Positions 3,677 to 21,454 of a stretch of 64,000 nt of DNA are shown here, in pieces (position 1 is the stretch's first letter; the number at the start of each line of letters is the position of its first letter). This stretch comes from Caenimonas aquaedulcis (GTDB lineage: Bacteria; Pseudomonadota; Gammaproteobacteria; Burkholderiales; Burkholderiaceae_C). The translations under genes and the position numbers were made by a program. The stretch lies in assembly GCF_015831345.1 (NCBI RefSeq), contig NZ_JADWYS010000001.1, positions 1,064,118-1,128,117 of the forward strand. The letters are read 5' to 3'. The notes under the pieces are model-generated. The model saw nothing but the letters and a program-made list of their open reading frames with translations, made no database searches and was not told the DNA's origin.

Positions 3677-3690
3677 TGATAGCGGTAACA
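3677..3690. promoter_or_regulatory. Operator site 1 of LacI-type regulon
   Basis: TGATAGCGGTAACA lies 36 nt before the SDR start at 3641. It differs from the perfect palindrome at 21441 by two bases. Four similar sites lie in this cluster, and a LacI/GntR-subgroup repressor is encoded next door, so this is the probable control point of the 3641-to-window-edge operon. Confidence 0.7.
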
Positions 3691-3718
3691 TTATCGCGCG
3701 AATGGATTGGCGACGCAA

Positions 3719-3733
3719 GGGCTTGCAAAGCCC
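3719..3733 (-). terminator. Possible hairpin after the lacI-type gene
   Basis: GGGCTT-GCA-AAGCCC forms a 6-bp stem with a 3-nt loop directly after the stop codon of the repressor gene. There is no U-run after it, so it would be a weak terminator at best. Confidence 0.3.
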
Positions 3734-3734
3734 C

Positions 3735-4790
3735 CTAGGTGCTCTCGCGCTGGATCACCTCGAACCCGAGGTCCAGCAGCACCGGCGCATCGTCGCCCCG
3801 CATCCGCCCGAGCAGAGCCTCGGCACTGCGCCGGCCGATCTCCAGGCGCGGCAGGCGCAGGCAGGTCAGGCGGGGGACGGTGTGCTGAAGGATGTCCAGG
3901 TCGTCGAAGCCGGCGATGGCGATGCGGCCCGGCACCTTCCAGCCGCGGCGCTGCGCCTCGAAAAGCGCGCCGATGGCCAGCACGTCGCCCGCGAAGAAGA
4001 TCGCGTCCACGTCCGGGGCGCGCTGCATCATGTCCACCATCGCGTGCGAGCCCGAAGTGAGGCCGCCCGGGACTTCCATCATCAGGAGCGGATCCTTCGC
4101 GCGGCCCAGCGACTTGAGCCCGGCCAGGTAGCCCCGCTGGCGCTCCCGCGCGCGGCGGTTGGTGCGCGTGTCCAGGCTCACGAAGCCGATGCGCTTGAAG
4201 CCGCGCGAGGCCAGGTGCAGCGTCATGGCCTTGGCCGCATCGGCGTTGGAATAGCTCACCACCATGTCGATCGGGTCGCGGGGCACATCGCCCGTCTCGA
4301 TCACCGGTACACCGGCGCGCTCGATCATCTGCAGCGCCTTGGGCGTGTGGTCGGTGTTGTGCAGGATGAGGCCGCCCACGCGCTGCGACAGGAAGGCGCC
4401 GATGAGCGCCTCCTCTTCCTGCATGGAATAGCCGCTGTCGGCGATCAGCAGGTGCATGCCGGCCGTGCGCAGCACGTCCGCGGTGCCCTTGACCGTGTCG
4501 GCGTAGAGCGAGTTCTGGATGCTGGGGACGATCTGCCCCACGACCGTGGAACGGTTCGACGCGAGGTTGGCGGCCACGCTGTTGGGCACGTAGCCGATCT
4601 TCTGCACGGCGTCGAGCACGGCCTTGCGCGTTTCCTCCGAGAGCTTTTGCGGTTCGCGCAGCGCGCGCGACACCGTCATCAGCGACACGCCCGCGGCATG
4701 CGCGACGTCCCGCATCCGCGCCCCCTGCCCTCCCGGACGGACCTTGGCTTCGGACACCCGGCTCTTCTTGGTTTCGGTCACAGTTGCCAT
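3735..4790 (-). CDS. LacI-family transcriptional repressor (GntR/gluconate subgroup)
   Basis: This 351-aa protein has a LacI helix-turn-helix (MRDVAHAAGVSLMTVSRALR, about residues 26-45) followed by the hinge-helix segment YVPNSVAANLASNRS. A periplasmic-binding-protein-like sensor domain follows, ending with a typical AIAGFDDLDI segment. The HTH and hinge resemble the gluconate repressors GntR/IdnR, whose known operators (TGTTACCGGTAACA type) look like the palindromes found five times here. It is divergent from the lactonase gene, with site 2 (4832-4845) between them, so autoregulation is likely. An ATG at 4802 is an alternative start. The effector is unknown. Confidence 0.88.
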   Translation of the reverse strand: MATVTETKKSRVSEAKVRPGGQGARMRDVAHAAGVSLMTVSRALREPQKLSEETRKAVLDAVQKIGYVPNSVAANLASNRSTVVGQIVPSIQNSLYADTVKGTADVLRTAGMHLLIADSGYSMQEEEALIGAFLSQRVGGLILHNTDHTPKALQMIERAGVPVIETGDVPRDPIDMVVSYSNADAAKAMTLHLASRGFKRIGFVSLDTRTNRRARERQRGYLAGLKSLGRAKDPLLMMEVPGGLTSGSHAMVDMMQRAPDVDAIFFAGDVLAIGALFEAQRRGWKVPGRIAIAGFDDLDILQHTVPRLTCLRLPRLEIGRRSAEALLGRMRGDDAPVLLDLGFEVIQREST

Positions 4791-4831
4791 GCGCCAAATC
4801 ATATGCCACAAGGGCCTTTGGCAAGAAACGA

Positions 4832-4845
4832 TGATAGCGGTATCA
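4832..4845. promoter_or_regulatory. Operator site 2 of LacI-type regulon
   Basis: TGATAGCGGTATCA is a 14-bp palindrome with one mismatched pair. It sits between the divergent repressor gene (start 4790) and lactonase gene (start 4907), placed to control both. Confidence 0.75.
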
Positions 4846-4906
4846 TATGGCCAGCACGCAACACCGCTGACCGCACAGCATTTCGCACCCGGCGAGGACA
4901 CCAGCC

Positions 4907-5710
4907 ATGACAGCACCCGCAGACCCGTACCGCGTCTACGCCATCAAGTACGCCCACCACGCCCGCAGCTCCAGCGCCAACTTCATCGGCGGCGACACGC
5001 ACGACGTGCCGATGCCGCTCGACTACTTCGTCTGGGCGGTGGTCGGCAAGGACCGCACCTTCCTCGTGGACACGGGCTTCGACCAGCCCGGCGCGGACAA
5101 GCGCGGGGGACGCAAGATCTCCACCCCCATCGACCAGGGGCTCGCCGCGGTGGGCATCTCCACCGAGTCGGTGAAGGACGTGATCATCACGCACATGCAC
5201 TACGACCACGCGGGCAACCGCGACATGTTCCCCAATGCCCGCTACCACGTGCAGGACAAGGAAATGGAGTTCTGCACCGGCCGCTGCATGTGCCATCGCC
5301 CGCTCGCCGTGCACTTCGAACCGGAAGACGTGGCCAGCATGGTCAAGAAGGTCTTCAAGGGCAACGTCGCCTTCCACGACGGCGACGACGAGATCGCGCC
5401 GGGCCTGTCCGTGCACCACCTGGGCGGCCACACCGCCGGCCTGCAGGTCGTGCGCGTGTGGACGGCCAAGGGCTGGATGGTGCTCGCCTCCGACGCGTCT
5501 CACTTCTACGCCAACATCGAGCAGAAGCGGCCCTTCCCCGCCGTCTACAACGTGGCCGACATGATGGAAGGCTACCAGCGCATCTACAGCCTGGCCGACA
5601 AGCCCGAACTCGTCATCCCCGGCCACGACCCGATGGTGCTGCAGCGTTTCCCCGCCGAGACGCGCGAGCACGAGGGCTGGATCGCGCGCCTGGACGGCGA
5701 CATGCGCTGA
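4907..5710 (+). CDS. N-acyl homoserine lactonase-family metallo-beta-lactamase-fold hydrolase
   Basis: This 267-aa metallohydrolase carries HMHYDHAGN near residue 100, the two-zinc HxHxDH motif. Further metal ligands are likely in HHLGGHTAG (His near 172), LASDASHF (Asp near 192) and VIPGHDP (His near 240). It matches the AttM/AiiB-like lactonase branch, which opens lactone rings in the cytoplasm. In this setting it may act on a lactone intermediate rather than a quorum signal, but that is inference. An AGGACA Shine-Dalgarno precedes the ATG. It is the first gene of the only rightward operon in the regulon and is followed by a TctC gene and an SDR gene. Confidence 0.87.
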   Translation: MTAPADPYRVYAIKYAHHARSSSANFIGGDTHDVPMPLDYFVWAVVGKDRTFLVDTGFDQPGADKRGGRKISTPIDQGLAAVGISTESVKDVIITHMHYDHAGNRDMFPNARYHVQDKEMEFCTGRCMCHRPLAVHFEPEDVASMVKKVFKGNVAFHDGDDEIAPGLSVHHLGGHTAGLQVVRVWTAKGWMVLASDASHFYANIEQKRPFPAVYNVADMMEGYQRIYSLADKPELVIPGHDPMVLQRFPAETREHEGWIARLDGDMR

Positions 5711-5750
5711 GCGCCGCGGCCGCCCCTTCCGACTTCACAAGGACACCGAC

Positions 5751-6728
5751 ATGCAGTTTTCCCGCCGCACCCTGGCAGCCGCGATCGCGGCCGCCGCACT
5801 CGCGCCCACGCTCGCGCTCGCCCAGGCCGCATGGCCCACGCGGCCCGTGCGCATCGTGGTCCCCTACCCGCCGGGCGGCAGCGTGGACCCGGTCGCGCGC
5901 ATGATCGGCGAGAAGCTCACGGGCCTGTGGGGCCAGCAGGTCGTCATCGACAACAAGCCGGGCGCGAGCACCATCATCGGCACCGACGTCGTGGCGAAGT
6001 CCCCGCCCGACGGCTACACCTACCTGCTCACCGCCAGCACGCACGTGAGCAACCCGCTGCTCTTTCCCACCCTGCCCTACGACAGCGTGAAGGACTTCGC
6101 CCCGGTCGCGCCGCTCTACAAGGCCGAATTCGTGCTCGTCGCGAACCCGTCCGTCAAGGGCGCGACGCTGCAGGAATTCATCGCCGACGCCAAGGCGCAC
6201 CCGGGCCAGTACAGCTATGCCTCCGCCGGCGCGGGCAACGCGAACCACATGGCCGCCGAGCTCTTCGCGATGATGACGGGCACCAAGCTGCTGCACGTGC
6301 CCTACAAGGGCGGCGGGCCGTTGCTGACGGACCTGATGAGCAACCAGGTGCAGCTGTATTTTGCGGTGCCCATCACGGTGATCCCGCACTTGCAGACCGG
6401 TAAGCTCAAGGCCTTCGCCACGACGGCGGAGACGCGCCTGCCGCTCATGCCCAACGTGCCCACCTTCAAGGAAGCCGGCCTGCCGGGCTTCGGCATGCGC
6501 TCGTGGCTGGGCGTGCTCGCACCGGCCAACACGCCGAAGGACATCGTGAACAAGGTGTCCGCCGACATTGCCAAGGTGCTCGCGATGCCGGACGTGCGTG
6601 AGCGCCTGCAAAGCCAGGGCCAGATCCCCTTCATCGCCACCCCGGAGCAATTCGGCACGATCATGAAGGAAGACACCGCGGAATTCGCGCGCGTCATCAA
6701 GGCCGCCAATATCAAGATCGACCAATAG
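5751..6728 (+). CDS. TctC/Bug family periplasmic solute-binding protein
   Basis: The 325-aa precursor starts with an Arg-Arg signal peptide (MQFSRRTLAAAIAAAALAPT, cleavage near ALA-Q). The Bug receptor signature RIVVPYPPGGSVDPVAR follows, and HVPYKGGGPLLTDL lies near residue 180. Bug proteins bind carboxylates in the periplasm for TctAB transporters or sense them, but no tctA/tctB is in the window. It is closely related to the receptor at 8500-9474 (both end KAAN-x-K-x-D), suggesting duplication within the regulon. It lies 40 nt after the lactonase gene, with an AGGA Shine-Dalgarno. Confidence 0.9.
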   Translation: MQFSRRTLAAAIAAAALAPTLALAQAAWPTRPVRIVVPYPPGGSVDPVARMIGEKLTGLWGQQVVIDNKPGASTIIGTDVVAKSPPDGYTYLLTASTHVSNPLLFPTLPYDSVKDFAPVAPLYKAEFVLVANPSVKGATLQEFIADAKAHPGQYSYASAGAGNANHMAAELFAMMTGTKLLHVPYKGGGPLLTDLMSNQVQLYFAVPITVIPHLQTGKLKAFATTAETRLPLMPNVPTFKEAGLPGFGMRSWLGVLAPANTPKDIVNKVSADIAKVLAMPDVRERLQSQGQIPFIATPEQFGTIMKEDTAEFARVIKAANIKIDQ

Positions 6729-6729
6729 C

Positions 6730-7515
6730 ATGTTCGAAGGCTGGGGTGTCGTCATCACCGGCGCCGGCAGCGGCATGGGAGCCGAGGCGGCACGCCGCTT
6801 CGCGCGCGAAGGCGCGCGGGTCGTCGTATCGGACATCGACGGCGCGGCGGCCAATGCCGTGGCACTCGAAATCGCGGCACCAGGTCCACGCGATGAACCG
6901 GTCCGTGCGATCGGCGTCGCCTGCGACGTCGCATCGGCCCAGGATTGCGCGCGTCTCGTCGCCTCGGCCGAATCGTTCTTCGGCGCCCCCGTCGATGTGT
7001 TCCTCGCCAATGCCGGCGTGAGCTTCGCGGGCGACTTCCTCACCGCCGACCCCGAGGCGCTCAAGCGCATCGTGGACGTGAACGTGACGGGCAGCGTGTT
7101 CTCCGCGCAAGCGGCGCTGCGCAGCCTCGTGAAGAGCCGGCGCGCGAGCCTGATCTTCACGAGTTCGATCAGCGGGGTGACGGCCCGCGCCAAGCGCAGC
7201 GTCTACAACGCGTCCAAGCACGCGCTCGCGGGCCTCGTGAAATCGCTGGCGCTCGAATTCGGCCCGGCCGGCGTGCGCGTGAATGCGATCGCGCCGGGCT
7301 CGACCGACACCCCCTTCCTGCGCACGCACCTGGCCAAGGTGGAAGACGACGTCGACGCCGCCGTGGCGCGCATCGTGAGCGCGATGCCCACGGGGCGCCT
7401 CGTTTCACCGGAAGACTTCGCGGACGCCGCGGTGTTCCTCGCCTCGCCCGCGGCGAAATCGATCACCGGCCACACGCTGCTGCTCGACGGCGGGGCAGCG
7501 TCAGGCCGGATGTAG
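6730..7515 (+). CDS. SDR family NAD(P)-dependent oxidoreductase
   Basis: This 261-aa classical SDR has the cofactor motif TGAGSGMGAEAAR near residue 11, ANAGVS near residue 95, catalytic Ser in FTSSISGVTAR and the YNASK motif. The usual INAxxPGxxxTPF segment appears as VNAIAPGSTDTPFL. It begins one base after the stop of the TctC gene, so the two are co-expressed. It oxidises or reduces a hydroxyl or keto group; the substrate is unknown. It converges with the next gene across a gap of only two bases. Confidence 0.88.
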   Translation: MFEGWGVVITGAGSGMGAEAARRFAREGARVVVSDIDGAAANAVALEIAAPGPRDEPVRAIGVACDVASAQDCARLVASAESFFGAPVDVFLANAGVSFAGDFLTADPEALKRIVDVNVTGSVFSAQAALRSLVKSRRASLIFTSSISGVTARAKRSVYNASKHALAGLVKSLALEFGPAGVRVNAIAPGSTDTPFLRTHLAKVEDDVDAAVARIVSAMPTGRLVSPEDFADAAVFLASPAAKSITGHTLLLDGGAASGRM

Positions 7516-7517
7516 GG

Positions 7518-8498
7518 TCACTGGACCTGAAGGCCCTTGTCCTTCACGATCTTCGTCCACTTCGTCACCTCGCCGGCCACGAACTTCTTCGCGTCGGCGC
7601 GAGAGTTGCCCACGGCGTCGATGCCGTCGCGCTCGAAGAATTGCTTCATCACCGGGCGATGCATGGCCTCCAGCGTGGCGGCATGCAGGCGGTCCAGGAC
7701 GGCCGGCGGCGTGCCGGCCGGTGCGGCGAGCACGAACCAGTTGAGCGCCTCGAAGCCCGGCAGCACCTCCGCGATCGCGGGCGTATTCGGCAGCGTGGCC
7801 ATGCGCTTCGCACCGGTTGTCGCGAGCAGCTTGAGCTTGCCGGAGCGCACGTGCGGCATGGACGACGCGGGGTTGTCCACCATCACGTCGACTTGCCCGC
7901 CGATGAGGTCGGTGAAGGCCGCACCCGCGCCCTTGTAGGGCACGTTGGTGAACTTGACGTTCGCCATCGTGCTCATGAGCTCGGTCGCCAGCGCCTGGAT
8001 GCCCGTGCTCGCGCTGAGCGCAAAATTCACGGGCGCGCCGGCTTTCGCCACAGCGAGCAGGTCCTGCACGTTGTTCGCCTTGAAGTTGACGTTGGCCACG
8101 AGCACCTGCGGCGTGGAGCCGATGATGGTGACAGCCTCGAAGTCCTTCACCGGGTCGTAAGGGACCTTGGGATAGAACGCGGGCGTGGTGCCGAAAGCGG
8201 CCGACGAAATGAGCAGCGTGTAGCCGTCCGCCTGCGCGCGCGCGACCTCCATCGCACCGATCTGCCCCGTGTTGCTCGCCTTGTTGTCGACGATGACGTT
8301 GGCCTTCAGGATCTCGCCGAGCTCCTTGGCGAAAGGCCGCGCGAGCGCATCGACCCCGCCGCCAGGGGCGAAGGGCACGATGATGCGGATGGTCTTGTCG
8401 GGGAACTCGGCGCTGGCGAGGCCGGCAAGGCCGAACTGCAGGGCGAGGAATGCGGATGCGCAGCGCGCGAGGGTCTTGGTCGAAAACATCCAGTTCAT
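7518..8498 (-). CDS. TctC/Bug family periplasmic solute-binding protein
   Basis: This 326-aa precursor begins MNWMFSTKTLARCASAFLAL with a signal sequence ending near LASA-E. The Bug signature RIIVPFAPGGGVDALAR is present. It should bind an organic acid in the periplasm. I start it at 8498 because that ATG lies one base from the upstream stop (8500-8502); the six residues before it are unlikely. It follows another receptor gene directly, making a tandem receptor pair behind operator site 3. It is more divergent from the 5751 and 8500 receptors than they are from each other. No membrane components are nearby. Confidence 0.88.
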   Translation of the reverse strand: MNWMFSTKTLARCASAFLALQFGLAGLASAEFPDKTIRIIVPFAPGGGVDALARPFAKELGEILKANVIVDNKASNTGQIGAMEVARAQADGYTLLISSAAFGTTPAFYPKVPYDPVKDFEAVTIIGSTPQVLVANVNFKANNVQDLLAVAKAGAPVNFALSASTGIQALATELMSTMANVKFTNVPYKGAGAAFTDLIGGQVDVMVDNPASSMPHVRSGKLKLLATTGAKRMATLPNTPAIAEVLPGFEALNWFVLAAPAGTPPAVLDRLHAATLEAMHRPVMKQFFERDGIDAVGNSRADAKKFVAGEVTKWTKIVKDKGLQVQ

Positions 8499-8499
8499 T

Positions 8500-9474
8500 T
8501 CAGTCGAGTTTGACATTGGCCGCCTTGATGATCTTCCCGAACTTGTCCATGTCGCTCCTCATCACGGCGTCGAACTGCTCCTGCGTCGTGGTGTAGCGGT
8601 CCATGCCGGCGACGTCGAGCTTCTCCTTCATCTCGGGCAGCGCCATGATGCGGTTCACTTCCGCGCCGATCTTCGCGACGATGTCCTTCGGCGTGCCGGC
8701 AGGCGCGAGCAGGCCGTACCAGATGCGCACTTCATACCCCGGCAGGCCCGCCTCCGACATGGTCGGCACGTCGGGCAAGAGCGGCATGCGCTTCGGGCTG
8801 GAGACGGCCAGCGCCTTCAGCTTGCCGCTTCGGATGTGCGGCATCACGATGATCGGGCTGCCCATGCTGAACTGCACCTGGCCGCCGACGAGATCGGTGA
8901 TGGCCGGGCCGCCGCCCTTGTACGGCACGTGCGTGGTCTTGATGCCGGCCATCATGTTGAGCAGCTCGCCCGCCAGGTGGTTGGGGTTGCCGCTGCCGGC
9001 GGAGGAGAAGTTCAATGCGCCCGGCTTGGACTTGGCGAGCGCGATGAACTCCTTGAGGTTGTTGGCCGGCACCTGCGCGGCGTTGGTGACGAGGATCATG
9101 TCCGTCGTGCTCACGGTCGCCACGGTGACGAAGTCCTTGATCGGGTCGTAGCTCGTCGGCAGCAACTGCGGATTGGTGACGTGCGACGACGCCGTGAGCA
9201 GCAGCGTGTAGCCGTCCGCCGGCGCCTTGGCGACGTACTCGGTGCCGATCACCGTGTTGCCGCCCGGGCGGTTGTCCACGATCACCTGCTGGCCGAAGGT
9301 CTCGCCCATCTTCTGGCTGATCACGCGCGCCAGCGGGTCCACGCTGCCGCCCGGCGGGAAGGGGACGACGATGCGCATCGGCTTGGTCGGGAAGGCGCCC
9401 TGCGCGCCTGCGGCCAACGGCGCCGCGGCGATGCACGCCGCCATCAGGCAGGCGGTCAGCGAAAAGGGTTTCAT
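8500..9474 (-). CDS. TctC/Bug family periplasmic solute-binding protein
   Basis: This 324-aa precursor has the signal peptide MKPFSLTACLMAACIAAAP, cleavage near AGA-Q, then RIVVPFPPGGSVDPLAR and HVPYKGGGPAITDLV. It is a paralogue of the 5751-6728 receptor. A strong AGGAGA Shine-Dalgarno precedes the ATG, and operator-like site 3 lies 17 nt upstream of the start. It is the first gene of a two-gene receptor operon. Binding of a carboxylate is expected from the family; the ligand is unknown. Confidence 0.9.
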   Translation of the reverse strand: MKPFSLTACLMAACIAAAPLAAGAQGAFPTKPMRIVVPFPPGGSVDPLARVISQKMGETFGQQVIVDNRPGGNTVIGTEYVAKAPADGYTLLLTASSHVTNPQLLPTSYDPIKDFVTVATVSTTDMILVTNAAQVPANNLKEFIALAKSKPGALNFSSAGSGNPNHLAGELLNMMAGIKTTHVPYKGGGPAITDLVGGQVQFSMGSPIIVMPHIRSGKLKALAVSSPKRMPLLPDVPTMSEAGLPGYEVRIWYGLLAPAGTPKDIVAKIGAEVNRIMALPEMKEKLDVAGMDRYTTTQEQFDAVMRSDMDKFGKIIKAANVKLD

Positions 9475-9490: not shown

Positions 9491-9504
9491 TGATAGCGCT
9501 AACT
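9491..9504. promoter_or_regulatory. Operator site 3 of LacI-type regulon
   Basis: TGATAGCGCTAACT lies 17 nt before the receptor start at 9474. It matches the perfect palindrome at 21441 at 12 of 14 positions. Confidence 0.68.
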
Positions 9505-9567: not shown

Positions 9568-10053
9568 TCAGCGGCGGATGTTGGTGGTGGACATGACGGC
9601 GCAGAGCTGGCCGCGCTGGTTGTGGAATTCGCGGCGGCTGACGACGAAAGCCATCAGGCCCGACTTGCCGGATTTGACGGACGTTTCCGTCACCGCCGCC
9701 GTCATCGTGAGCGTGTCGCCGACGATCATCGGCTCGTGGAATTCGTACGCGTCGCCGCCGTGCAGCGTCGCCTTGCCGAAGTCGAAGACGAGCGGCGAGG
9801 TGCGGCAATTGAAGAAGGCTTGCCAGATGAGCGGCCAGGGCGCGACGATGCCGCGATAGCCGCGCGCCCTGGCCGCGGCCGCGTCGTAGTGGATGGGGTC
9901 CATGTTGCCCAGCGCGAGCGCCATCCGCCGCGCGGACAGCTCTTCGATGGGCAGCGTGTCGGGCTCGCCGACGGGGCCGTGCATCGCGCGCAGGCTCGCC
10001 TCGATGGCGCCGACGTCGGGCGCGGGCGACCCGGCGGGCTGGATCTCGCTCAT
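9568..10053 (-). CDS. MaoC-like / FAS1-type hydratase-dehydratase domain protein
   Basis: This 161-aa protein has a hot-dog-fold dehydratase look: MDPIHYDAAAARARGYRGIV near residue 51 is the hydratase-2 type Asp/His motif region. APWPLIW and EFHEPMIVGDTL follow as in MaoC N-terminal-type dehydratases. It probably hydrates or dehydrates an enoyl-CoA together with the adjacent MaoC protein, as these short forms usually work as heteromers. The ATG at 10053 overlaps the preceding stop (ATGA). It is the last gene of the seven-gene operon that begins at 15358. Confidence 0.8.
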   Translation of the reverse strand: MSEIQPAGSPAPDVGAIEASLRAMHGPVGEPDTLPIEELSARRMALALGNMDPIHYDAAAARARGYRGIVAPWPLIWQAFFNCRTSPLVFDFGKATLHGGDAYEFHEPMIVGDTLTMTAAVTETSVKSGKSGLMAFVVSRREFHNQRGQLCAVMSTTNIRR

Positions 10054-10520
10054 GCGGTCTTCCCTTCGCGCAGCGGCAGTTCCGCGACGAGGCCGCCCGG
10101 CGTCGTGACCTTGCCGTCCTGGTTGACGATGCTGCATTCGATGTCGAGCATGCCCTTGCCGCCCTCCACCCACGCGCGCTTCACGCTCGCATGGATGTGC
10201 GCGAGGTCGCCCGGCATCGTGGTGGCGGTGTTGCGGTCCCAGAAGGACGCCACGCGCGCGCGGCTGCCGACCCAGTTCGTCACTTCGGTCAACATGTAGC
10301 ACGCCATGAACGGGCCGGAGAGCAGCAGGCCCGGCAGGCCCACTTCCTTCGCCGCCTTCGCGTCGTGGTGGAACTCGGAGGCGTAGTTGTCGCAGGCGGC
10401 GGCCCAGCGCACCTGGTGCCCCGCGGTCATCGGGCCCTTGGTGACGACGGGCATCTGCGCGCCTTCGGGAAATTCATCGAAGTAGCGCGCAGGCGGCTCC
10501 TTCGTGTCGACCTTGAACAT
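10050..10520 (-). CDS. MaoC family dehydratase
   Basis: This 156-aa single hot-dog protein starts MFKVDTKEPPARYFDEFPEG. The central segment ACDNYASEFHHDAKAAKEVG occupies the place of the usual D-x-N-x-x-H hydratase motif. LLSGPFMACYMLTEVTNWVG and PGDLAHIHASVKRAW follow, as in MaoC proteins of CoA-dependent catabolism. It is expected to pair with the 161-aa neighbour, like ChsH1 with the hydratase part of ChsH2 in steroid side-chain breakdown. It is separated by 3 nt from the DUF35 gene and overlaps the next gene. Confidence 0.8.
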   Translation of the reverse strand: MFKVDTKEPPARYFDEFPEGAQMPVVTKGPMTAGHQVRWAAACDNYASEFHHDAKAAKEVGLPGLLLSGPFMACYMLTEVTNWVGSRARVASFWDRNTATTMPGDLAHIHASVKRAWVEGGKGMLDIECSIVNQDGKVTTPGGLVAELPLREGKTA

Positions 10521-10523
10521 GGC

Positions 10524-10964
10524 TCAGGACTCCTTGCGCGGCTTGAAGCGCGGAATGGTGATCTCGGGCGTGACGGCGTCGAAGCTCACTTCGACAGCAT
10601 CGCCGACGCGGACCTGGTCGTTCGCAACGCCCACGATGTTGCTGAACAGGCGCGGTCCCTCCTCGAGCTGGACCATCGCGACGTTGTACGGAAGGTCCGC
10701 CTTGAAGCCCGGGTGGTAGGCCTGGTGGAATACGATGTAGGAGAACACGGTGCCGCGCCCGGACATCGCCGTCCACTCGGCTTCGTCGGACAGGCAGCGC
10801 GGGCAGAAGCGGTTGATGGGGTAGCGCACGTGCCCGCAGGGCGTGCACTTCTGCAGCTTGAGCACGCCCTCACGGCAGGCTTGCCAGAACGGCGTGTTCT
10901 CGTCGTTCAGGGTGGGCAGCGGCTTCGGGTAGCCCGTGACCGCGTCGACCATGCCTTCCATCAT
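10524..10964 (-). CDS. OB-fold Zn-ribbon (DUF35) protein, acyl-CoA-associated
   Basis: This 146-aa protein has a rubredoxin-like zinc ribbon: CTPCGHVRYPINRFCPRC near residues 40-57, two CxxC pairs. A C-terminal OB-fold follows, with RGTVFSYIVFHQAYHPGF and VGDAVEVSFD. DUF35 proteins partner thiolase-fold enzymes, and in ChsH2 the domain recruits the aldolase Ltp2. The start at 10964 overlaps the thiolase-like stop (ATGA) and has GAGGAGGGG just upstream; ATGs at 10961 and 10952 are alternatives. Its position between the thiolase-like gene and the MaoC genes supports a multi-enzyme hydratase-aldolase complex. Confidence 0.86.
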   Translation of the reverse strand: MMEGMVDAVTGYPKPLPTLNDENTPFWQACREGVLKLQKCTPCGHVRYPINRFCPRCLSDEAEWTAMSGRGTVFSYIVFHQAYHPGFKADLPYNVAMVQLEEGPRLFSNIVGVANDQVRVGDAVEVSFDAVTPEITIPRFKPRKES

Positions 10965-14579: not shown

Positions 14580-15358
14580 TTCATCTTCCACACCGGGTCG
14601 CGCTTTTCCGCGAAGGCCTTGCGGCCCTCCACGCGGTCCTCGGTGTCCTTCAGGATGCCGTACATGTACTTGTCCACCTGCAACGCGTGCGTGAGCGGCA
14701 TGTCCTGCCCGCGCGTGACGAGTTGCTTGACCGCGCGCACTGCGAGCGGCGCGTTTTGCGCGATGCGCTTGCCCAGCGCGATGGCCGTGGGCATCAGCTC
14801 GGCCGCGGGGACGACCTTGCTGCACAGGCCCATGCGCAGCGCCTCATGCGCGTCGATCATGTCGCCGGTGAGCAGGAGCATCATCGCGTCGCTCTTCGAA
14901 ATCGACCGCGGCAGGCGCTGGATGCTGCCGCCCCAGGGAATGCTGCCGCGCTTGACTTCGGTCAGCCCGAACTTCGCGTTCTCGGAGGCGATGCAGATGT
15001 CGCACGCGGTGATGAGCTCGGTGCCGCCGGCCAAGGCGTAGCCGTTGACGGCCGCGATGATGGGCTTGTCGGTCTCGAGGCCCTGGAAGGCGCTGCCCGT
15101 GTCGCCGCGGCCGAGCAGCTGCTGCGCGTAGCTGTCGTTCGGGTCGGGCATGGTCTTCTTGAGGTCGGCGCCCGTGCAGAAAGCCTTGTCGCCGGCCCCG
15201 GTGAAGATGATGACGTGGATGCCGTCGTCCTTCTTCATGCGGTCGTAGAAGGCGTACAGCTCCTGGCGCATCTCCGGGTCGATGGAGTTCATCGCATGCG
15301 GGCGGTTGAACTCCACCACGCACACCTTGTCCTCCACCGTGATGTTGAGGTTGGGCAT
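14576..15358 (-). CDS. Enoyl-CoA hydratase/isomerase family protein
   Basis: This 260-aa crotonase-fold protein has VVEFNRPHAMNSIDPEMRQE, the oxyanion-hole segments FTGAGDKAFCTGADLKK and ALAGGTELITACDICIAS, and GLTEVKRGSIPWGGSIQRLP. The ECH-type Glu near the latter region (LTEVKRG) is present. It hydrates or isomerises a CoA ester. A clear AAGGAC Shine-Dalgarno precedes the ATG. It leads a seven-gene, fully coupled operon down to 9568, with the palindromic operator site 4 ending 17 nt upstream of its start. Confidence 0.9.
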   Translation of the reverse strand: MPNLNITVEDKVCVVEFNRPHAMNSIDPEMRQELYAFYDRMKKDDGIHVIIFTGAGDKAFCTGADLKKTMPDPNDSYAQQLLGRGDTGSAFQGLETDKPIIAAVNGYALAGGTELITACDICIASENAKFGLTEVKRGSIPWGGSIQRLPRSISKSDAMMLLLTGDMIDAHEALRMGLCSKVVPAAELMPTAIALGKRIAQNAPLAVRAVKQLVTRGQDMPLTHALQVDKYMYGILKDTEDRVEGRKAFAEKRDPVWKMK

Positions 15359-15373: not shown

Positions 15374-15387
15374 TGTTAGCGCTAACC
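15374..15387. promoter_or_regulatory. Operator site 4 of LacI-type regulon
   Basis: TGTTAGCGCTAACC contains a perfect 12-bp palindrome GTTAGCGCTAAC (15375-15386). It lies 17 nt upstream of the enoyl-CoA hydratase start, matching the spacing of site 3. Confidence 0.7.
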
Positions 15388-15518: not shown

Positions 15519-16412
15519 TCAGAAAGGGACGAAGTCGGTGGGAAATTTCCAGAAGTCCTTGAGCAGGGAATTCACGGGCAGGTTGAGTGCCTTGTCGTGC
15601 GGCGGGATGGGCTTCATGAACCACTTGTCGTAGATCGGGTAGATCTCCCTGCTCAGGATGAGCCGGCGCATTTCGTCATCGACCAGCTTCTTGAACTCCG
15701 GGTCGTTCTTGGGCAGCATGATCGCCAGGGCCTCCGTGGTGAGGTACTTGCCCACGATCTTCAAGGCGGCAGGGTCCGGGCGGTTGGAAGCCAGGCCGTA
15801 GAGCAGCACGTCGTCCATCACGAAGGCGCCGGCCGCGCCCTTTTCCACCATCTCGACACCCTGCGCATGGTCCGCCGATTCGAGGATGGTGATGTTCATC
15901 AGCCGCTCCTTGTTGGCCTGGACCACGGCCTTGAGCGGCGTGGTGCCCTTGGTCGAGACGATCTTCTTGCCTTCGAAATCCTCGATGCGGGTGGCGGGGC
16001 TGTCCGCACGCACCAGCAGGCGGGCGCCGGTGATGAAGTGGGGGATGGTGAAGGCGACCTTCTCGCGCCGCTCGGCGTTGTTGGTGGTGGCGCCGCATTC
16101 CAGGTCCGCCCTGCCCTCGGCGATCGCGGCGATGCGGGTGGAAGACGTCACCATCAGGAACTCGACCTCCATCTTCTTGGCGCCCGTCTTCTTGCGGATC
16201 ACTTCGGCCAGGTTCAGGCACAGGTCCATCGCATAACCCACGGGGCGCTTGTCCGCATCCACGTAAGAAAAGGGAATTGAAGATTCGCGGTGCGCGATCA
16301 CCAGCTTGCCGCCCGCCGCGATGCGCGCGAGCACGGGCTCTGCCGCCACGGCCAGGGAACTGCACAGGAACATGCCGATGGCGGCGTACGACTTCCAGCG
16401 GGCATTGCTCAT
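15519..16412 (-). CDS. Extracellular solute-binding protein family 3 (polar amino acid type)
   Basis: This 297-aa precursor has a signal peptide (MSNARWKSYAAIGMFLCSSL, cleavage near AVA-A). The family 3 landmarks KLVIAHRESSIPFSYVD and EGRADLECGATTNNAERR follow, then SADHAQGVEMVEKGAAGAFV. It resembles glutamate/aspartate-binding GltI and should bind an amino acid or small acid in the periplasm. No ABC permease or ATPase gene adjoins it, so it is an orphan receptor. A GAGGT Shine-Dalgarno precedes the start. No palindrome of the LacI-type set lies upstream, so it may not belong to the surrounding regulon. Confidence 0.88.
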   Translation of the reverse strand: MSNARWKSYAAIGMFLCSSLAVAAEPVLARIAAGGKLVIAHRESSIPFSYVDADKRPVGYAMDLCLNLAEVIRKKTGAKKMEVEFLMVTSSTRIAAIAEGRADLECGATTNNAERREKVAFTIPHFITGARLLVRADSPATRIEDFEGKKIVSTKGTTPLKAVVQANKERLMNITILESADHAQGVEMVEKGAAGAFVMDDVLLYGLASNRPDPAALKIVGKYLTTEALAIMLPKNDPEFKKLVDDEMRRLILSREIYPIYDKWFMKPIPPHDKALNLPVNSLLKDFWKFPTDFVPF

Positions 16413-16528
16413 TTTTACCTCTATGTTGGTTAAAAAGAGCTACTCTATCGAGCGCCGTCCAAAGCGGCCAATGCCCAGCATAAGGGTCGGCATGCACAGT
16501 CCGCATGCACATCAGAAGTCGGTGATGT

Positions 16529-19054
16529 CTACGTGATGCCGAGCTTGCGTTTGTAGTCCGGGTCGACCTCGTGGATCGCCTTCACGCGCTGCAGTTCCGC
16601 CAGGCCCATCGCATCGAAAGGCTTGTTGACGGTCGGCTCGCTGCACACCACACGCGCGTCGAACAACGCGGCGATGCGCGCCTCGTCCATTCCCAGCACG
16701 TCGCGCAGGATCGCGCGTCCGTCCTCGCCGTAGCGCGGCGCCGGCTTGCGGATGTGCACGTCGCGGCTCGCGAGCTTCCACGGGCGGCTCATGATCGGGC
16801 GCACGCCCATGGGCAGCGGCAGGTTCACCCTCTCGTGGAAACCACGCGCGAGCAGGTGTTCATCGAGCAGGATGTCACGGTTGTTGAAGACCGGGCCGCA
16901 GGCGATGCCCGCGGCTTGCAGGCGATGCATCAGTGCCCGCGCGTCCTGGGGGCGCACCCATTGCGCCACCGCCGCGTCGATGCGCTCGCGCGCGTTTCGC
17001 CTGGCGTCCGCCCGCGTCCAGGACGCATCGACGGCCACGCCGTCCGCCGCCATCATGGACGCCAGCGATTGCCACTGCGCATCCGTCTCCACCGTGAGCG
17101 CCACCCAGCGATCGTCGCCCGCGCCCGGGTAGGCGTTGCTCGGCACGTGCAATTCATGCTCGTTGCCGATCCGCTGCGGCTCGGTGCCGTCGACCTGGTA
17201 CTGCAGCAAGGCCTCCGGGATCAGGGCCGCGCCCACCTGGTACATGCCCAGGTCGATCGACTGGCCCTGCCCCGTCATGCGCACGTGGCGCAGCGCACAG
17301 AACAAGGCGGCAAGGCCGGCCCAGCACGCGAGGAAATCGGGATACGACTGCCCCACCTTCCATGGTTTGTCGCCGCGATAGCCGGAATACGCGGCGATCC
17401 CCATGGTCACCTCCAGCGTGGTGCCCTGGCTCGGGAAGTTCTTCCACGGCCCGGTGCCGCCGTAGCCCGTGTTCGCGAGCGTGATGAGCTTCGGGTTGAT
17501 CTCGCGCAGCGCCTCGTCGCCCAGGCCCCAGCCCGCGAGCACGCGCGGCGTGAAGTTGTTGACCACCACGTCGCTCTTCGCGACGAGCTCGCGGAACACC
17601 TGCTTGCCCTCCGCCTGCGCCATGTCGAGCGCCATCGACTGCTTGCCGCGGTTCACCACGTTGAACATGCCGGAGCGGTTGATCGCATCCTCGCGCGTGT
17701 CGTTTTCCAGGTAGGTGGTGAGCACGCCCTTGCGCGTCGGGTCGAGCTTGAGCGGCGACTCGATCTTGATCACCTCCGCGCCCAGGTCGCTGAGGAGGGA
17801 CGCCATGTAGGGCATCGCGATCACGGTGGCCATGTCCAGCACGCGCAGGCCCTCGAGCGGTAGGCGCGCTTTGGCAGACGCAGGCAGCCTGGACGGCGCA
17901 GGGAGCGACCGCACCTGCCCGATCACTTCGGCCGTGTGCTCGCCCAGCATCGGCGCGCGGCGGCGCACGGCTGTCGGCGTGAGCGACATCTTCACGAGCT
18001 CGCCGGGATAACGAAAGCGCCCCCCGGCCGGATGCTCGACCTCCACCCAGAAGCCCCGCTGGGCGAGTTGCTCGCACGCGAGCAGGTCCGGCGCCGTCTG
18101 CACGACCCCCATCAGGAGGCGCCGCTGCGACCCGTCGACGAAGAGTTCCTTCGCCTCGCGGTCCTTCACGCACTGCGCGACGAGGTCGCGCACTTCGGCG
18201 ACGTGCTTGGACCGCTCCTTGTTGCTCGCGAACTTCGGGTCCCGGAACGCATCGTTGCGAAAGAGGTCCGCGAAAGTTTCGTTGGGCACCGTGAGGCTGG
18301 CCTGGAAGGAGAGGTAGCCTTTCTTCGTCTCGACCGGCGCGCCCGAGTACGGGTCCTGCACGGCCATGCGCCGCCCCTGGATCGCGCCCATGAAGGTGTA
18401 GTAGGTCTCGCAGGTCACGAGCTCGGAGACCAGGCATTCCTGGATCGACAGGTCCACGTGGTCGCCGATGCCGTCGCGCTCCGCCGCGGTGAAAGCGGCG
18501 AGCGCCGCATACGCGGCGTTCAGTCCTGCGCAGAAAGCGACCTGGTTCAGGCCATGCTTGAGCGGCGCGCGGTCCACGTCGCCGCTGATCTGCATGATCC
18601 CGCTCATCGCCTGGTGCACGAGGTCGCTGCCGGTGAAGTGCGCGTACGGCCCCTCCTGCCCGAAATCCGTCACCGAGGTCACGACGACGCGCGGGTTGAT
18701 CTCCAGCATCCGCTGCGGGGACAAGCCCCACGCGGCGAGCGTGCCCGGCTTGAAGCCTTCGATCACGATGTCGCTCGCCTTCACCAGCGCTTCGAGCTCC
18801 GCGAGCGCCTGCGGCGTGCCGAGGTCCAGCGCGACACCGCGCTTGTTCCAGTTGAGGTAGGCGAAGAGCAGGCTGCGCTCCGCTGCGGGCCCTTCGTGCA
18901 GCAGCGGGTGCAGCGCCCGCGCCGGATCCCCGGCGAGCGGCTCCACCTTCACGACCTCGGCGCCGAAGTCGCCCAGCAGGCGCGCGGCCATCGGTGCCGC
19001 GATGCCGGGACCCAGGTCCAGGACACGCACACCGCGCAATGCAGATTCACTCAT
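16529..19054 (-). CDS. Tandem-fused class III CoA-transferase (two CaiB/BaiF domains)
   Basis: This 841-aa protein contains two complete family III CoA-transferase domains, about residues 1-385 and 395-841. The first begins LRGVRVLDLGPGIAAPMAAR and lacks the catalytic Asp (NQVAFCAGLNAAYAAL). The second begins LEGLRVLDMATVIAMPYMAS and has it (SYPDFLACWAGLAALF). Single-domain members are about 400 aa, so this is a fusion. Its halves resemble the separate genes at 13332 and 12106 in the same order. It should transfer CoA to an organic acid. Its ATG overlaps the MmgE/PrpD stop; it is the last gene of the operon starting at 21433. Confidence 0.9.
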   Translation of the reverse strand: MSESALRGVRVLDLGPGIAAPMAARLLGDFGAEVVKVEPLAGDPARALHPLLHEGPAAERSLLFAYLNWNKRGVALDLGTPQALAELEALVKASDIVIEGFKPGTLAAWGLSPQRMLEINPRVVVTSVTDFGQEGPYAHFTGSDLVHQAMSGIMQISGDVDRAPLKHGLNQVAFCAGLNAAYAALAAFTAAERDGIGDHVDLSIQECLVSELVTCETYYTFMGAIQGRRMAVQDPYSGAPVETKKGYLSFQASLTVPNETFADLFRNDAFRDPKFASNKERSKHVAEVRDLVAQCVKDREAKELFVDGSQRRLLMGVVQTAPDLLACEQLAQRGFWVEVEHPAGGRFRYPGELVKMSLTPTAVRRRAPMLGEHTAEVIGQVRSLPAPSRLPASAKARLPLEGLRVLDMATVIAMPYMASLLSDLGAEVIKIESPLKLDPTRKGVLTTYLENDTREDAINRSGMFNVVNRGKQSMALDMAQAEGKQVFRELVAKSDVVVNNFTPRVLAGWGLGDEALREINPKLITLANTGYGGTGPWKNFPSQGTTLEVTMGIAAYSGYRGDKPWKVGQSYPDFLACWAGLAALFCALRHVRMTGQGQSIDLGMYQVGAALIPEALLQYQVDGTEPQRIGNEHELHVPSNAYPGAGDDRWVALTVETDAQWQSLASMMAADGVAVDASWTRADARRNARERIDAAVAQWVRPQDARALMHRLQAAGIACGPVFNNRDILLDEHLLARGFHERVNLPLPMGVRPIMSRPWKLASRDVHIRKPAPRYGEDGRAILRDVLGMDEARIAALFDARVVCSEPTVNKPFDAMGLAELQRVKAIHEVDPDYKRKLGIT

Positions 19055-20415
19055 GGATGGATTTCCCGACTTTCGGCGAGCGCATAAAGCGCGCGCGTGC
19101 CCGGCAGTTCATCGACCGCCATGAGCGCATTGAACAAGGGCCGCGCATCGGCGGCCAGGCCGCCGGCCTGCAGACAGCTTTCGAACTTGGCGAACAGCTC
19201 GCCGGGGAGCAGCGGACGCTCCGGCCCGCCGCGCACATAGTCCACTTCGCGGCGCAGCGTGCGGCCGTCCTGCAACTGCAGCTGGACCACGTCCACCGGC
19301 GCCTCGCCCGCGCGATCGCCGGCTTCCTCGTCGGTGGGAATCACCTCCACGGCGCGCATCAGTTCGCGCACGTCCGCGCGCTGCACCAGCGCATCGTCGA
19401 GTTCCTGCAGGCCGCAGCGGTGCGCGACGATCGCCGACGCCATCGCGAACTGCATGGAGAACTTCGCCTGCAGGCGGTCCTGCGGCGCGTCGAAACGCAG
19501 CGTCGACTTGTTGCGCCGGCTGATGGTGACGGCGATGCGCTTGACGTCGCCCGCGGGCACGACCTGCTCGGCGAGGATGTCCAGGATGCCGTCGAGCGCG
19601 CGGTGCGTCGCGAAACACACCGGGTATTTCTTGATGTTGACGCCGTCGCGCGGCAGCTTCCAGTCGCGCCCGGCCAACACCGGCGAGTCGACATCGACGC
19701 GGCCTTCCGGCGAGATGCCCCGCATCAACCCCTTGGAGCCTTCCAGCGCGTCCGGCGACGCGGTGAAGCCGCGCTGCGCGAGCCGGGCCGCCATCACGCC
19801 GGCATGCGCCGCGATGCCGGCGTGCAGGGGTTTCGTCATGCTGCCGAAATTCGCGATCACGCCGCCGCTGCGCGACGCGGCCATGCCCAGCGCATGCGCG
19901 GTGTGGCGGGCATCGAGGCCGCGAAGCGAGGCGCACGCCGCCGCGGCCGCCAGCGGCCCGAACACGCCCGTCGGATGCCAGCTGTGGTTGTGATACAGGC
20001 CGGGCTCGCGCCGCAGCAGTTCCGCCCACGTCTCATAGCCTGCCGCATAGGCCGTGGCCATCGCGCGGCCGTCGGCGTCGCAGGCATCCGCCTCGGCAAG
20101 GATCGCGGGGACGAGCACGGCGCTCAGGTGGCCCTTCTGCGCCGCATCGTCGAAGTCGAGCGCGTGCGCCGCCGTCGCGTTGAGCCACGCCGCCTCGGGC
20201 GCGCGCGCGGTGCCCTGGTCGACGAAGAGCCGGCTTTCGCCCGGCGGCGGGTCCAGCGTCTCGCGCAGGATGCGCGCGGGCTCGCTCACCCGGCCCGCCA
20301 CGAGCGTCGCGAAGCAGTCGGTAAAGGCGCTGCGGATGAAGGGCAGCGCAGCGGGGGGCACGTCGCCGAAGCGCAGCGACCCGACGAAGCCTGCGAGCTC
20401 CTTCGTCAATGCCAT
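19051..20415 (-). CDS. MmgE/PrpD family protein
   Basis: This 454-aa protein carries MmgE/PrpD landmarks: FTDCFATLVAGRVSEPAR near residue 33, HALDFDDAAQKGHLSAVLVP near residue 82, and GVNIKKYPVCFATHRALDGI near residue 265. The family includes 2-methylcitrate dehydratase and other acid dehydratases or isomerases. The start at 20415 (MALTKELAGFVGSLRFGDVP) has an AGGAGA Shine-Dalgarno; upstream sequence in this frame belongs to the TctC gene in another frame. It sits between a TctC receptor gene and the fused CoA-transferase, suggesting uptake, CoA activation and dehydration of one acid. It is divergent from the copy at 1486. Confidence 0.87.
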   Translation of the reverse strand: MALTKELAGFVGSLRFGDVPPAALPFIRSAFTDCFATLVAGRVSEPARILRETLDPPPGESRLFVDQGTARAPEAAWLNATAAHALDFDDAAQKGHLSAVLVPAILAEADACDADGRAMATAYAAGYETWAELLRREPGLYHNHSWHPTGVFGPLAAAAACASLRGLDARHTAHALGMAASRSGGVIANFGSMTKPLHAGIAAHAGVMAARLAQRGFTASPDALEGSKGLMRGISPEGRVDVDSPVLAGRDWKLPRDGVNIKKYPVCFATHRALDGILDILAEQVVPAGDVKRIAVTISRRNKSTLRFDAPQDRLQAKFSMQFAMASAIVAHRCGLQELDDALVQRADVRELMRAVEVIPTDEEAGDRAGEAPVDVVQLQLQDGRTLRREVDYVRGGPERPLLPGELFAKFESCLQAGGLAADARPLFNALMAVDELPGTRALYALAESREIHP

Positions 20416-20434
20416 GGGGATCTCCTGGGGCGCG

Positions 20435-21433
20435 TCATTCGGCCTTGATGCCCATCTCCTGGACGATGGCCGCGTTCTGCGACAACTCCTCCTGCACGAA
20501 GGCCGCGAACTGCTCCGGGCTTTGCGACATCGTCTCCAGCCCCTGCTTGAGCAGCATCTCGCGTGTGTCCGCTCCCTGCATGCCCCGCGCGATGGCCGCG
20601 TTGAGCTTCGCGACGATCTCGCGCGGCGTGCCGGCGGGCGCGGCAATGCCGAACCAGGTCGCGCGGTCGTAGCCGGCCACGCCCGCCTCGGCGATCGTCG
20701 GCGTGCCGGGCGCGGCCGCGGAACGCGACCGCGTTGTCACGCCCAGCATGCGCAGCTTCCCCGCTTCCACCAGCGGCAGCGCGGGTGCCAGGCTGGCGAA
20801 GGCGACCTGGATATCGCCCGCGACGGTCGCGTTGATCGCCTCGGCGCCGCCCTTGAAAGGCACGTGCACGATCTTCACTTTCGCGAGCCGGTTGAAGAAT
20901 TCGCCCGCCAGATGCTGCGAGTTGCCCACGCCGGGCGAGCCGTAATTGAGCGCGCCGGGCCTGGCCTGCGCGAGCGCGACGAGTTCGCGCACGTTCTTCA
21001 CAGGCAGCGCGGGGTTCACTACGAGCGCCAATGCGCCCGTTACCGCGGGAGCAACCAACGCGAGGTCATGCCGCATGTCGAAGGGCAGCTTGGCGCGCAG
21101 GGCGGGCAGGATCGTGTCTGCCGCCGAAATCACGATCAGGCTGTAGCCGTCGGGGGGTGAGTGCGCCACGCGTTCCAGCGCGATGGCGCCCGTCGCGCCG
21201 GGCATGTTCATCACGAGGACCTGCTGGCCCAGTTCCTGCGACAGCTTCGCGGCGATCATGCGCGCGACGTAGTCGGTGCCGCCGCCCGCGGGGTAGCCGA
21301 CATACAGGCGGATGGGCTTGTCGGGCCAGGCGGATTGCGCCCATGCGGCGGGTGTGCTCGCCGCCGCGAAAACGGCTCCCAGCCCTGCCATCAGGTGGCG
21401 GCGGGACAGCCGCGCGAAAGGAACTTCGGACAT
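20435..21433 (-). CDS. TctC/Bug family periplasmic solute-binding protein
   Basis: This 332-aa precursor has a twin-arginine-like signal (LSRRHLMAGLGAVFAAAS, cleavage near AWA-Q), then the Bug signature RLYVGYPAGGGTDYVAR and HVPFKGGAEAINATVAG. It should bind a carboxylate in the periplasm. It is the first gene of a three-gene operon with MmgE/PrpD and the fused CoA-transferase. The perfect operator palindrome 21441-21454 lies only 7 nt before the start codon. No tctA/tctB permease genes are nearby. Confidence 0.9.
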   Translation of the reverse strand: MSEVPFARLSRRHLMAGLGAVFAAASTPAAWAQSAWPDKPIRLYVGYPAGGGTDYVARMIAAKLSQELGQQVLVMNMPGATGAIALERVAHSPPDGYSLIVISAADTILPALRAKLPFDMRHDLALVAPAVTGALALVVNPALPVKNVRELVALAQARPGALNYGSPGVGNSQHLAGEFFNRLAKVKIVHVPFKGGAEAINATVAGDIQVAFASLAPALPLVEAGKLRMLGVTTRSRSAAAPGTPTIAEAGVAGYDRATWFGIAAPAGTPREIVAKLNAAIARGMQGADTREMLLKQGLETMSQSPEQFAAFVQEELSQNAAIVQEMGIKAE

Positions 21434-21440
21434 CGGTTTA

Positions 21441-21454
21441 TGATAGCGCTATCA
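21441..21454. promoter_or_regulatory. Operator site 5 of LacI-type regulon (perfect palindrome)
   Basis: TGATAGCGCTATCA is a perfect 14-bp palindrome in the divergent gap between the TctC gene (21433) and dienelactone hydrolase gene (21505). It is the best match to the set and could control both genes. Confidence 0.78.

Follow-up and report, generated by a model that had tools for sequence, protein, structure and literature searches.

A LacI-family repressor and a recurrent palindromic operator probably define a dispersed catabolic regulon in Caenimonas aquaedulcis

The 64,000-nt stretch of Caenimonas aquaedulcis DNA analysed here (the window; C1:1064118-1128117 of a 4.52-Mb genome) very probably contains the central part of a regulon under a single LacI-family repressor of the GntR subgroup. 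Five palindromic 14-mers stand before predicted operons in the window, and the coordinates given for them in a preliminary description of this DNA were verified in the sequence. Regulation of this kind is known; the regulon itself is apparently undescribed, and searches of an open-licence library found no description of this LacI/palindrome regulon. The repressor gene and the five operators are:

3677 to 3690: operator TGATAGCGGTAACA, between the LacI stop and the SDR1 start, without a predicted promoter
3735 to 4790, minus strand: LacI-family repressor, 351 aa, GntR subgroup, with Pfam LacI and Peripla_BP domains and recognition-helix residues L-M in GVSLMTVSR
4832 to 4845: operator TGATAGCGGTATCA, between the divergent lacI and MBL genes, autoregulation predicted
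9491 to 9504: operator TGATAGCGCTAACT, before Bug3-Bug2
15374 to 15387: operator TGTTAGCGCTAACC, before the ECH-CaiB-CaiB-thiolase-DUF35-MaoC-MaoC operon
21441 to 21454: operator TGATAGCGCTATCA, between the divergent Bug4 and DLH genes

These five sites are far apart in score from all other 14-mers of the window. A matrix built solely from 51 distinct sites in relatives, which had originally been found with our first weight matrix, gave them 26.8, 24.6, 24.2, 23.8 and 21.6 bits; no other 14-mer of the 64 kb scored above 6.2 bits. The first matrix gave five window sites at or above 19 bits compared to a mean of 0.017 in 60 first-order Markov simulations, a count that is partly circular because this matrix includes sites of the own genome. 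A loose pattern (three or fewer mismatches) matched the window 13 times against a shuffle mean of 6.3; 3 of 100 shuffles also reached 13, and this count alone is mildly unusual.

With lacI starting at 4790 and Bug4 at 21433, all five operators lie 8 to 62 nt upstream of gene starts (7-120 nt upstream of operon starts in the preliminary description). The 3677 site is 36 nt (coordinate difference) before the SDR1 start, the 9491 site 17 nt before a Bug-receptor gene and the 15374 site 16 nt before the enoyl-CoA-hydratase gene. Between divergent genes, the 4832 site is 42 nt before LacI (117 nt if the codon-usage caller's start at 4715 is used) and 62 nt before the MBL-fold gene, and the 21441 site is 8 nt before Bug4 (50 nt with that caller's start) and 51 nt before the dienelactone-hydrolase-like gene on the opposite strand. 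The caller was a simple codon-usage script with approximate starts and some missed genes, and the distances carry that error. A promoter scan of four regions yielded one sigma-70-like promoter each, with 10 of the 12 positions matched; shuffled sequence gave means of 0.0 to 0.2. The –10 elements of the predicted promoters at 4818-4846 (plus strand) and 21468-21440 (minus strand) are overlapped by the 4832 and 21441 operators. On the minus strand, the 15374 operator begins 5 nt behind the –10 of the promoter predicted at 15420-15393, and the 9491 operator 10 nt behind that at 9543-9515; both begin about where transcription would start. The predicted layout fits steric repression.

The sites had been taken to surround the repressor and to define one 21-kb block of about 19 genes. 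Only the 3677 and 4832 sites flank LacI; the other three do not. The sites span 17.8 kb, the predicted operons occupy window positions 165 to 22209, and 22 genes are counted under the five sites there: lacI alone, SDR1-PrpD1-CMD-HIBADH, MBL-Bug1-SDR2, Bug3-Bug2, ECH-CaiB2-CaiB1-thiolase-DUF35-MaoC-MaoC, Bug4-PrpD2-double CaiB-ABC receptor, and DLH. We rejected a single block because of the remote members at 3.13 and 4.27 Mb; the regulon occupies at least three loci in the own genome, and its sites extend over up to ~55 kb in relatives.

Genome-wide, the exact pattern DGWTAVCGCTAWCH occurs at 10 distinct sites, compared to none for the reversed-pattern control. Each is upstream of a predicted gene start, one of them touching it. 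The motif is not common before unrelated genes of this genome, a concern that the preliminary description had raised: six of the 10 belong to the cluster, three stand at remote operons with orthologs in relatives' islands, and one (18489) is an undecided member. The sixth cluster site, C1:1062264, lies before Bug7, 1.85 kb left of the window; genes for an IlvD/Edd-family dehydratase and a GntR-type regulator (named by reading; L019:13608-16147) adjoin it. At the 4.27-Mb locus, site 4267345 precedes acyl-CoA ligase-CaiB3, and site 4274766 precedes Bug5-Baeyer-Villiger-like monooxygenase-hydrolase-Bug6. At the 3.13-Mb locus, site 3134317 and its one-mismatch partner 3132758 stand before a small protein-hydrolase-Liv transporter operon and an aldehyde dehydrogenase gene (ALDH). 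We count these loci as members mainly because the LacI islands of relatives hold orthologs of most of their genes compared. The acyl-CoA ligase, CaiB3 and Bug6 are 87.5%, 86% and 83% identical to proteins of the Variovorax SRS16 plasmid island. In the LacI island of a metagenome-assembled genome (MAG), near two sites, relatives of ALDH (69%), the hydrolase (79%), LivK (72%), LivH (80%), LivM (65%) and the small protein (53%) are found. The Liv-type transporter under the site (L020:11574-14971) comprises a receptor and two permease genes, with no ATPase gene next to them among the codon-usage gene calls; the orthologous MAG locus (L109) also has an ATPase gene. The 10th exact site, C1:18489 (L022:7990; 19.5 bits), lies between PEP-mutase/isocitrate-lyase-like and aldehyde-dehydrogenase-like genes. 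Leaving it out, the predicted regulon comprises about 36 genes, 22 in the window and 14 outside.

The switch looks real and appears to recur in other soil and water bacteria. A search for related loci returned 14, seven of them with a LacI at 71-87% identity; the SRS16 plasmid provided an eighth LacI relative (85%), and three genomes of the same genus (G434, G411 and G454, the last found through its operator sites) carry LacI proteins at 83-85%. With the first matrix, all 10 relatives with a readable junction (L031-L036, L075, L118, L119 and L123; the contig of L037 ends before the junction) had the operator between LacI and SDR1 at no less than 21.4 bits. Orthologous clusters that keep the repressor thus keep the motif, whose absence from them the preliminary description had named as a refutation. 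The flanks of this 14-mer have diverged among relatives. The site between MBL and LacI was found, at 16.5 to 22.7 bits, in 10 of 11 relatives (L031, L032, L034-L037, L075, L118, L119 and L123). Of the remaining window operators, that at 9491 before Bug3-Bug2 is in the same place in G454, that at 15374 before the ECH operon is in the same place in Verticiella (L032), and a 14-mer identical to that at 21441 lies between DLH and PrpD2 in Verticiella.

In several relatives the exact sites are concentrated around LacI. All eight genome sites of Xenophilus azovorans fall within 54.8 kb of one contig around LacI, all six of Verticiella sediminum within 21.5 kb, and the SRS16 plasmid has eight in 54 kb; Variovorax KK3 has five on two contigs and the MAG four on two contigs. 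Paraburkholderia BL9I2N2 and LB400 have three and two exact sites, of which one and two belong to the LacI cluster. Counterparts of window genes in the islands are about 56-90% identical. The own genome, Verticiella, Xenophilus, SRS16, one MAG and two genomes of the same genus all retain the ECH-CaiB-thiolase-DUF35 operon. Further modules with the same operator in relatives' islands encode a Rieske oxygenase, three thiamine-diphosphate enzymes, a TauD-like oxygenase, an acyl-CoA dehydrogenase, an HMG-CoA-lyase-like protein and Liv transporters. The ALDH gene of the SRS16 island (L098:30839-32148) is split into two frames and looks broken.

We compared these loci with nine stretches (148 kb) that carry a PrpD1 homolog without an orthologous LacI. 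Seven came from the top-scoring of 20 other genomes with a PrpD1 match and have no LacI match at E ≤ 1e-60. The other two are Paraburkholderia plasmids; in a search of plasmid sequences, SRS16 alone showed a LacI above 60% identity. None of the nine stretches contained an operator, the first matrix giving 13.7 bits at best and the relatives' matrix 11.3, and three of them (L156, L077 and L078) also keep MBL and SDR1. Since the sites are missing where LacI is missing, they appear to follow the repressor, not the enzymes. This absence speaks against the notion that the 14-mers are a dispersed repeat, or sites of another protein, unrelated to LacI. Short palindromes can be repeats, but of the 66 distinct sites that scored 19 bits or more across 30 loci, none was inside a called gene and 62 had a start codon within 300 nt. 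We give this explanation hardly any credence.

The window LacI matched PF00356 (63.4 bits, cut-off 27) and PF13377 (98.2 bits, cut-off 26.5). Its resemblance to GntR and IdnR, noted in the preliminary description, was borne out in that these are its best NCBIfam models, but all scores fell below the cut-offs: 313 of 400 (GntR), 227 of 500 and 215 of 433 bits. Ravcheev et al. (2014; PMC4052901) place GntR and IdnR in gamma-Proteobacteria. The GntR-type operator as given in the preliminary description, TGTTACCGGTAACA, has the same length as the operators here and a central CG; the core differs, AGCGCT here compared to ACCGGT, and the window LacI has L in the recognition helix where relatives with K-M have K. 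We rejected the window LacI as a GntR/IdnR equivalog on these scores, and a Pfam scan of 30 proteins revealed no gluconate or idonate gene under a site (20 from the window cluster, nine from the remote loci, among them a VOC protein not under a site, and the IlvD/Edd-family protein of L019; Bug4, DLH, the aldo/keto reductase, Bug5-7, LivH and LivM were left out of that scan).

Among the LacI loci read, the recognition-helix residues L-M, M-I and A-I pair with an AGCGCT-like core, and K-M, P-M and P-I with an ACCGGT or ATCGGT core; many LacI genes in this comparison have no such site. In the GntR-subgroup loci L113, L116, L057, L062, L063, L066, L050 and L049, the two residues before TVSR seem to track the operator core. 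More distant LacI proteins are accompanied by other palindromes: G420 (LacI 54-55%) has only a TGGTACCGGTATCA-type site and Sphingobium (51%) has GGTTACCGGTATCC-type sites three times, while the contig of G438 (57%) starts within the LacI gene. This pairing of helix residues and core suggests that the motif marks a LacI subgroup, not one repressor. It is conceivable, then, that the palindromes are read by several GntR-subgroup LacI proteins and that we have merged a network into one regulon. Consistent with this, TGATAGCGCTATCA also occurs before a 46% LacI paralog (L127), GGATAGCGCTATCC and TGTTAGCGCTAACA lie beside others, and in Xenophilus a second LacI (44%) stands near a site at the island edge. 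That gene (L102:4436-5419) is divergent from a gene with the same operator type.

The own genome argues otherwise. It has five LacI-domain genes, and only one of them besides the window LacI itself matches the latter at E ≤ 1e-50 (35% identity, at 4.08 Mb). The palindromes upstream of this paralog, TGACAACGTTATCA and TGACAACGTTACCA, are different and score 12.5 and 6.2 bits with the relatives' matrix. No GntR-type site was found upstream of this paralog or at the third LacI (4.10 Mb), and no rival of the GntR operator subgroup was found in this comparison, which covered three of the five LacI genes (all but those at 1.95 and 4.36 Mb). We consider a merged network quite improbable. The TGACAACGTTACCA and TGACAACGTTATCA near-palindromes are 59 nt apart (L128:6668 and 6727), between the 35% paralog and a Bug gene; the paralog and its two near-palindromes probably represent a second LacI regulon.

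Several results weigh against a regulon of a single repressor with the membership given above. Other LacI paralogs, in related genomes, also have operators of this class beside them, and sequence alone cannot name the binder. A survey of the genus found at least one exact site in 23 of 59 genomes (10 in the own genome, five in G434, three each in G411 and G454, and one to four in 19 others). A close LacI is present in the own genome, G434, G411 and G454; the 19 others have no known close LacI ortholog, and in the nine of them examined (G408, G410, G416, G423, G425, G435, G438, G440 and G456) at least one site stands beside a different LacI. In Xenophilus (L033) the MBL position beside LacI is taken by another gene, and the LacI gene has no upstream site. 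The genome-wide counts in Paraburkholderia are not above the reversed control (per strand 1/3 vs 1/4, and 2/2 vs 3/1). No promoter was predicted for SDR1 at the 3677 site, and three of the four promoter-scanned regions covered only 220-260 nt around an operator, which by itself accounts for part of the nearness to promoters. For the monooxygenase and hydrolase under 4274766, a search of 26 LacI-island stretches gave no relative at E ≤ 1e-40, and their membership is thus read from the operator itself. The genes at C1:18489 have no close orthologs in relatives' islands, for which reason we did not accept this site as a firm member. A search of the own genome for the acyl-CoA dehydrogenase seen in relatives' islands gave no match at E ≤ 1e-60.

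The 22 window genes with their family assignments form a coherent catabolic set, as had been proposed, under what is very probably one LacI repressor. Families were assigned from Pfam and NCBIfam, except for Bug4, DLH and the aldo/keto reductase, which were named by likeness or reading. The genes other than lacI are:

165 to 1058, minus strand: HIBADH-like beta-hydroxyacid dehydrogenase, nearest to 2-hydroxy-3-oxopropionate-reductase models, below cut-off
1074 to 1451, minus strand: CMD, carboxymuconolactone-decarboxylase family (Pfam/NCBIfam)
1486 to 2841, minus strand: PrpD1, MmgE/PrpD family, nearest solved structure iminodisuccinate epimerase (E 1.8e-50)
2841 to 3641, minus strand: SDR1, short-chain dehydrogenase, 3-hydroxybutyrate-dehydrogenase-like (below cut-offs)
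4907 to 5710, plus strand: MBL-fold hydrolase, lactonase-like (below cut-offs)
5751 to 6728, plus strand: Bug1 (TctC) solute receptor
6730 to 7515, plus strand: SDR2
7518 to 8498, minus strand: Bug2 (TctC) solute receptor
8500 to 9474, minus strand: Bug3 (TctC) solute receptor
9568 to 10053, minus strand: MaoC-C (FAS1_DH_region), putative hydratase subunit
10050 to 10520, minus strand: MaoC-N partner, MaoC-like only by place and size beside MaoC-C, no match in Pfam or NCBIfam, hypothetical in the SRS16 annotation
10524 to 10961, minus strand: DUF35/ChsH2-type Zn-ribbon OB-fold protein with CxxC-x10-CxxC
10961 to 12109, minus strand: thiolase-fold protein without the usual nucleophilic Cys, YDNF motif (Y283)
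12106 to 13335, minus strand: CaiB1, class III CoA-transferase
13332 to 14579, minus strand: CaiB2, class III CoA-transferase
14576 to 15358, minus strand: ECH, enoyl-CoA hydratase/isomerase
15519 to 16412, minus strand: family-3 ABC solute-binding protein, end of the Bug4 operon (membership less certain)
16529 to 19054, minus strand: double CaiB CoA-transferase
19051 to 20415, minus strand: PrpD2, MmgE/PrpD family
20435 to 21433, minus strand: Bug4 solute receptor, named by likeness to other Bug receptors
21505 to 22209, plus strand: DLH, dienelactone-hydrolase-like, named from sequence reading, with 69-71% orthologs beside an operator

PrpD1 and PrpD2 both carry MmgE_PrpD_N and _C domains. 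The HIBADH operon appears to extend past the left end of the window and to include an aldo/keto reductase-like gene (L019:17176-18168, named by reading).

The substrate may be a substituted succinate or another branched dicarboxylic acid handled as CoA esters; we offer this tentatively, and the closest annotated homologs of the regulon proteins gave no readable substrate. A sugar acid or lactone (aldonate-like) appears unlikely. Its core would be the MBL lactonase, the SDR and the HIBADH-like reductase, with the CoA genes as later additions, and both Paraburkholderia stretches do keep MBL-LacI-SDR1-PrpD1-HIBADH, with the CoA-transferase/thiolase operon not seen there. The nearest models, GntR for LacI and 2-hydroxy-3-oxopropionate reductase for HIBADH, point the same way, but neither match reaches its curated cut-off. 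The sixth site has an IlvD/Edd-family dehydratase gene 0.8 kb away, but not in the downstream direction, and no gluconate kinase, permease or dehydratase was found among the scanned proteins under sites. Retention of the ECH-CaiB-thiolase-DUF35 operon in the genomes listed above also speaks against CoA genes as mere additions.

An aromatic substrate, with the Rieske modules of relatives as the entry step and only the lower pathway kept in the own genome, we likewise regard as improbable. Rieske genes stand in operons with upstream sites in the MAG, SRS16, KK3 and Xenophilus (in the last at only 16.5 bits), and their alpha subunit is nearest to salicylate 5-hydroxylase and terephthalate dioxygenase, with AndAc below cut-off. 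The own genome, however, has no Rieske gene under a site; a single match (47%) passes E ≤ 1e-40 there, at 1.39 Mb, where no site is listed, and the Verticiella and Paraburkholderia stretches have no Rieske match at that threshold.

The thiolase-fold protein is not an ordinary thiolase, as no Cys occupies the nucleophile place; in an alignment judged by eye, GGATAGALIQQA stands in place of the Cys loop. Its Y283 aligns, by reading, with Y294 of 6ok1, the catalytic-base Tyr. Phe333 and Asn285 are at the places of Ltp2 Tyr344 and Sal Cys304. The Ltp2-ChsH2 and Sal-Shy steroid side-chain aldolases share with this system a thiolase fold with DUF35 and MaoC partners and the catalytic-base Tyr. According to PMC12329534, Ltp2 and Sal have YDHF and YDCY motifs plus an acid residue; YDNF is found here, without the general acid Tyr344 or Cys304. 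Among the proteins examined the resemblance is at the level of the fold only, and we rejected a steroid or bile-acid pathway. An ibuprofen-type ipf pathway was also considered and set aside. The lack of a Cys in the nucleophile loop, together with Y283-D-N-F and Phe333, leads us to favour retro-aldol-type cleavage rather than thiolysis.

Two known CoA-dependent systems have similar parts. The Bbs operon of benzylsuccinate beta-oxidation is under two-component control, in contrast to the predicted LacI control here; we take BbsEF to be CaiB-type. It has a CoA-transferase pair, an enoyl-CoA hydratase, SDRs and a thiolase with a Zn-finger partner, as here, and an acyl-CoA dehydrogenase, matched in relatives' islands only (pathway from PMC10818641). 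The differences are low scores against the BbsA/BbsB models (DUF35 44 of 250 bits, thiolase 108 of 750 bits), the thiolase-fold protein without nucleophilic Cys, the extra MaoC pair and PrpD. The itaconate CoA-transferase is presumably also CaiB-type. The itaconate/methylsuccinate cluster of Cupriavidus and Pseudomonas contains, according to PMC12290011, an MmgE/PrpD isomerase, an itaconate CoA-transferase, a hydratase and an acyl-CoA dehydrogenase (the last again in relatives only); its MmgE/PrpD protein is a methylsuccinate isomerase that works with the CoA-transferase and a dehydrogenase. The present system differs in its thiolase-fold/DUF35 pair, two PrpD copies and many more genes. No citramalyl-CoA lyase gene was recognised under a site.

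From the computed operators, their conservation, their co-occurrence with the repressor, their nearness to predicted promoters and the extra loci, we infer binding by this LacI, repression rather than activation, an inducer, a pathway order and a substrate class. In the absence of inducer, a LacI dimer would sit on TGWTAGCGCTAWCA-type palindromes at promoters and block its own gene, six predicted window operons, one Bug gene left of the window, and the loci at 3.13 and 4.27 Mb. A pathway metabolite bound in the periplasmic-binding-protein-like domain would release LacI. The acid would then be imported by the Bug and ABC receptors, activated to CoA esters by the class III CoA-transferases and the acyl-CoA ligase, and isomerised, hydrated and cleaved at a C-C bond by PrpD, MaoC/ECH and the thiolase-fold/DUF35 pair. 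A more speculative reading, possible but rather doubtful, is that this horizontally spread LacI island encodes an aerobic pathway, so far undescribed, that degrades a substituted succinate or a comparable branched dicarboxylic acid, with PrpD isomerisation, paired CoA-transferase activation, MaoC/ECH hydration and thiolase-fold/DUF35 retro-aldol cleavage among its steps. It would be equally speculative that a third active-site type (YDNF, with no second acid Tyr or Cys) replaces thiolysis and a CitE-type lyase.

The predicted pair of regulator and operator can be tested. With it comes a parts list, ~36 genes here and additional modules among relatives, for catabolic islands whose genes carry family-level annotation only; a Variovorax from linuron-contaminated soil has one such island on a 560-kb plasmid. 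One operator motif ties together Bug receptors, CoA-transferases, PrpD proteins and oxygenase modules that nothing else would link to one pathway, and it reduces the search for the substrate to a simple induction test. What appears to be the same regulon is a single island in some genomes and dispersed in the own genome. Elsewhere in the window, positions 31712-38052 look, from their translations, like a sulfur-oxidation (sox) gene cluster.

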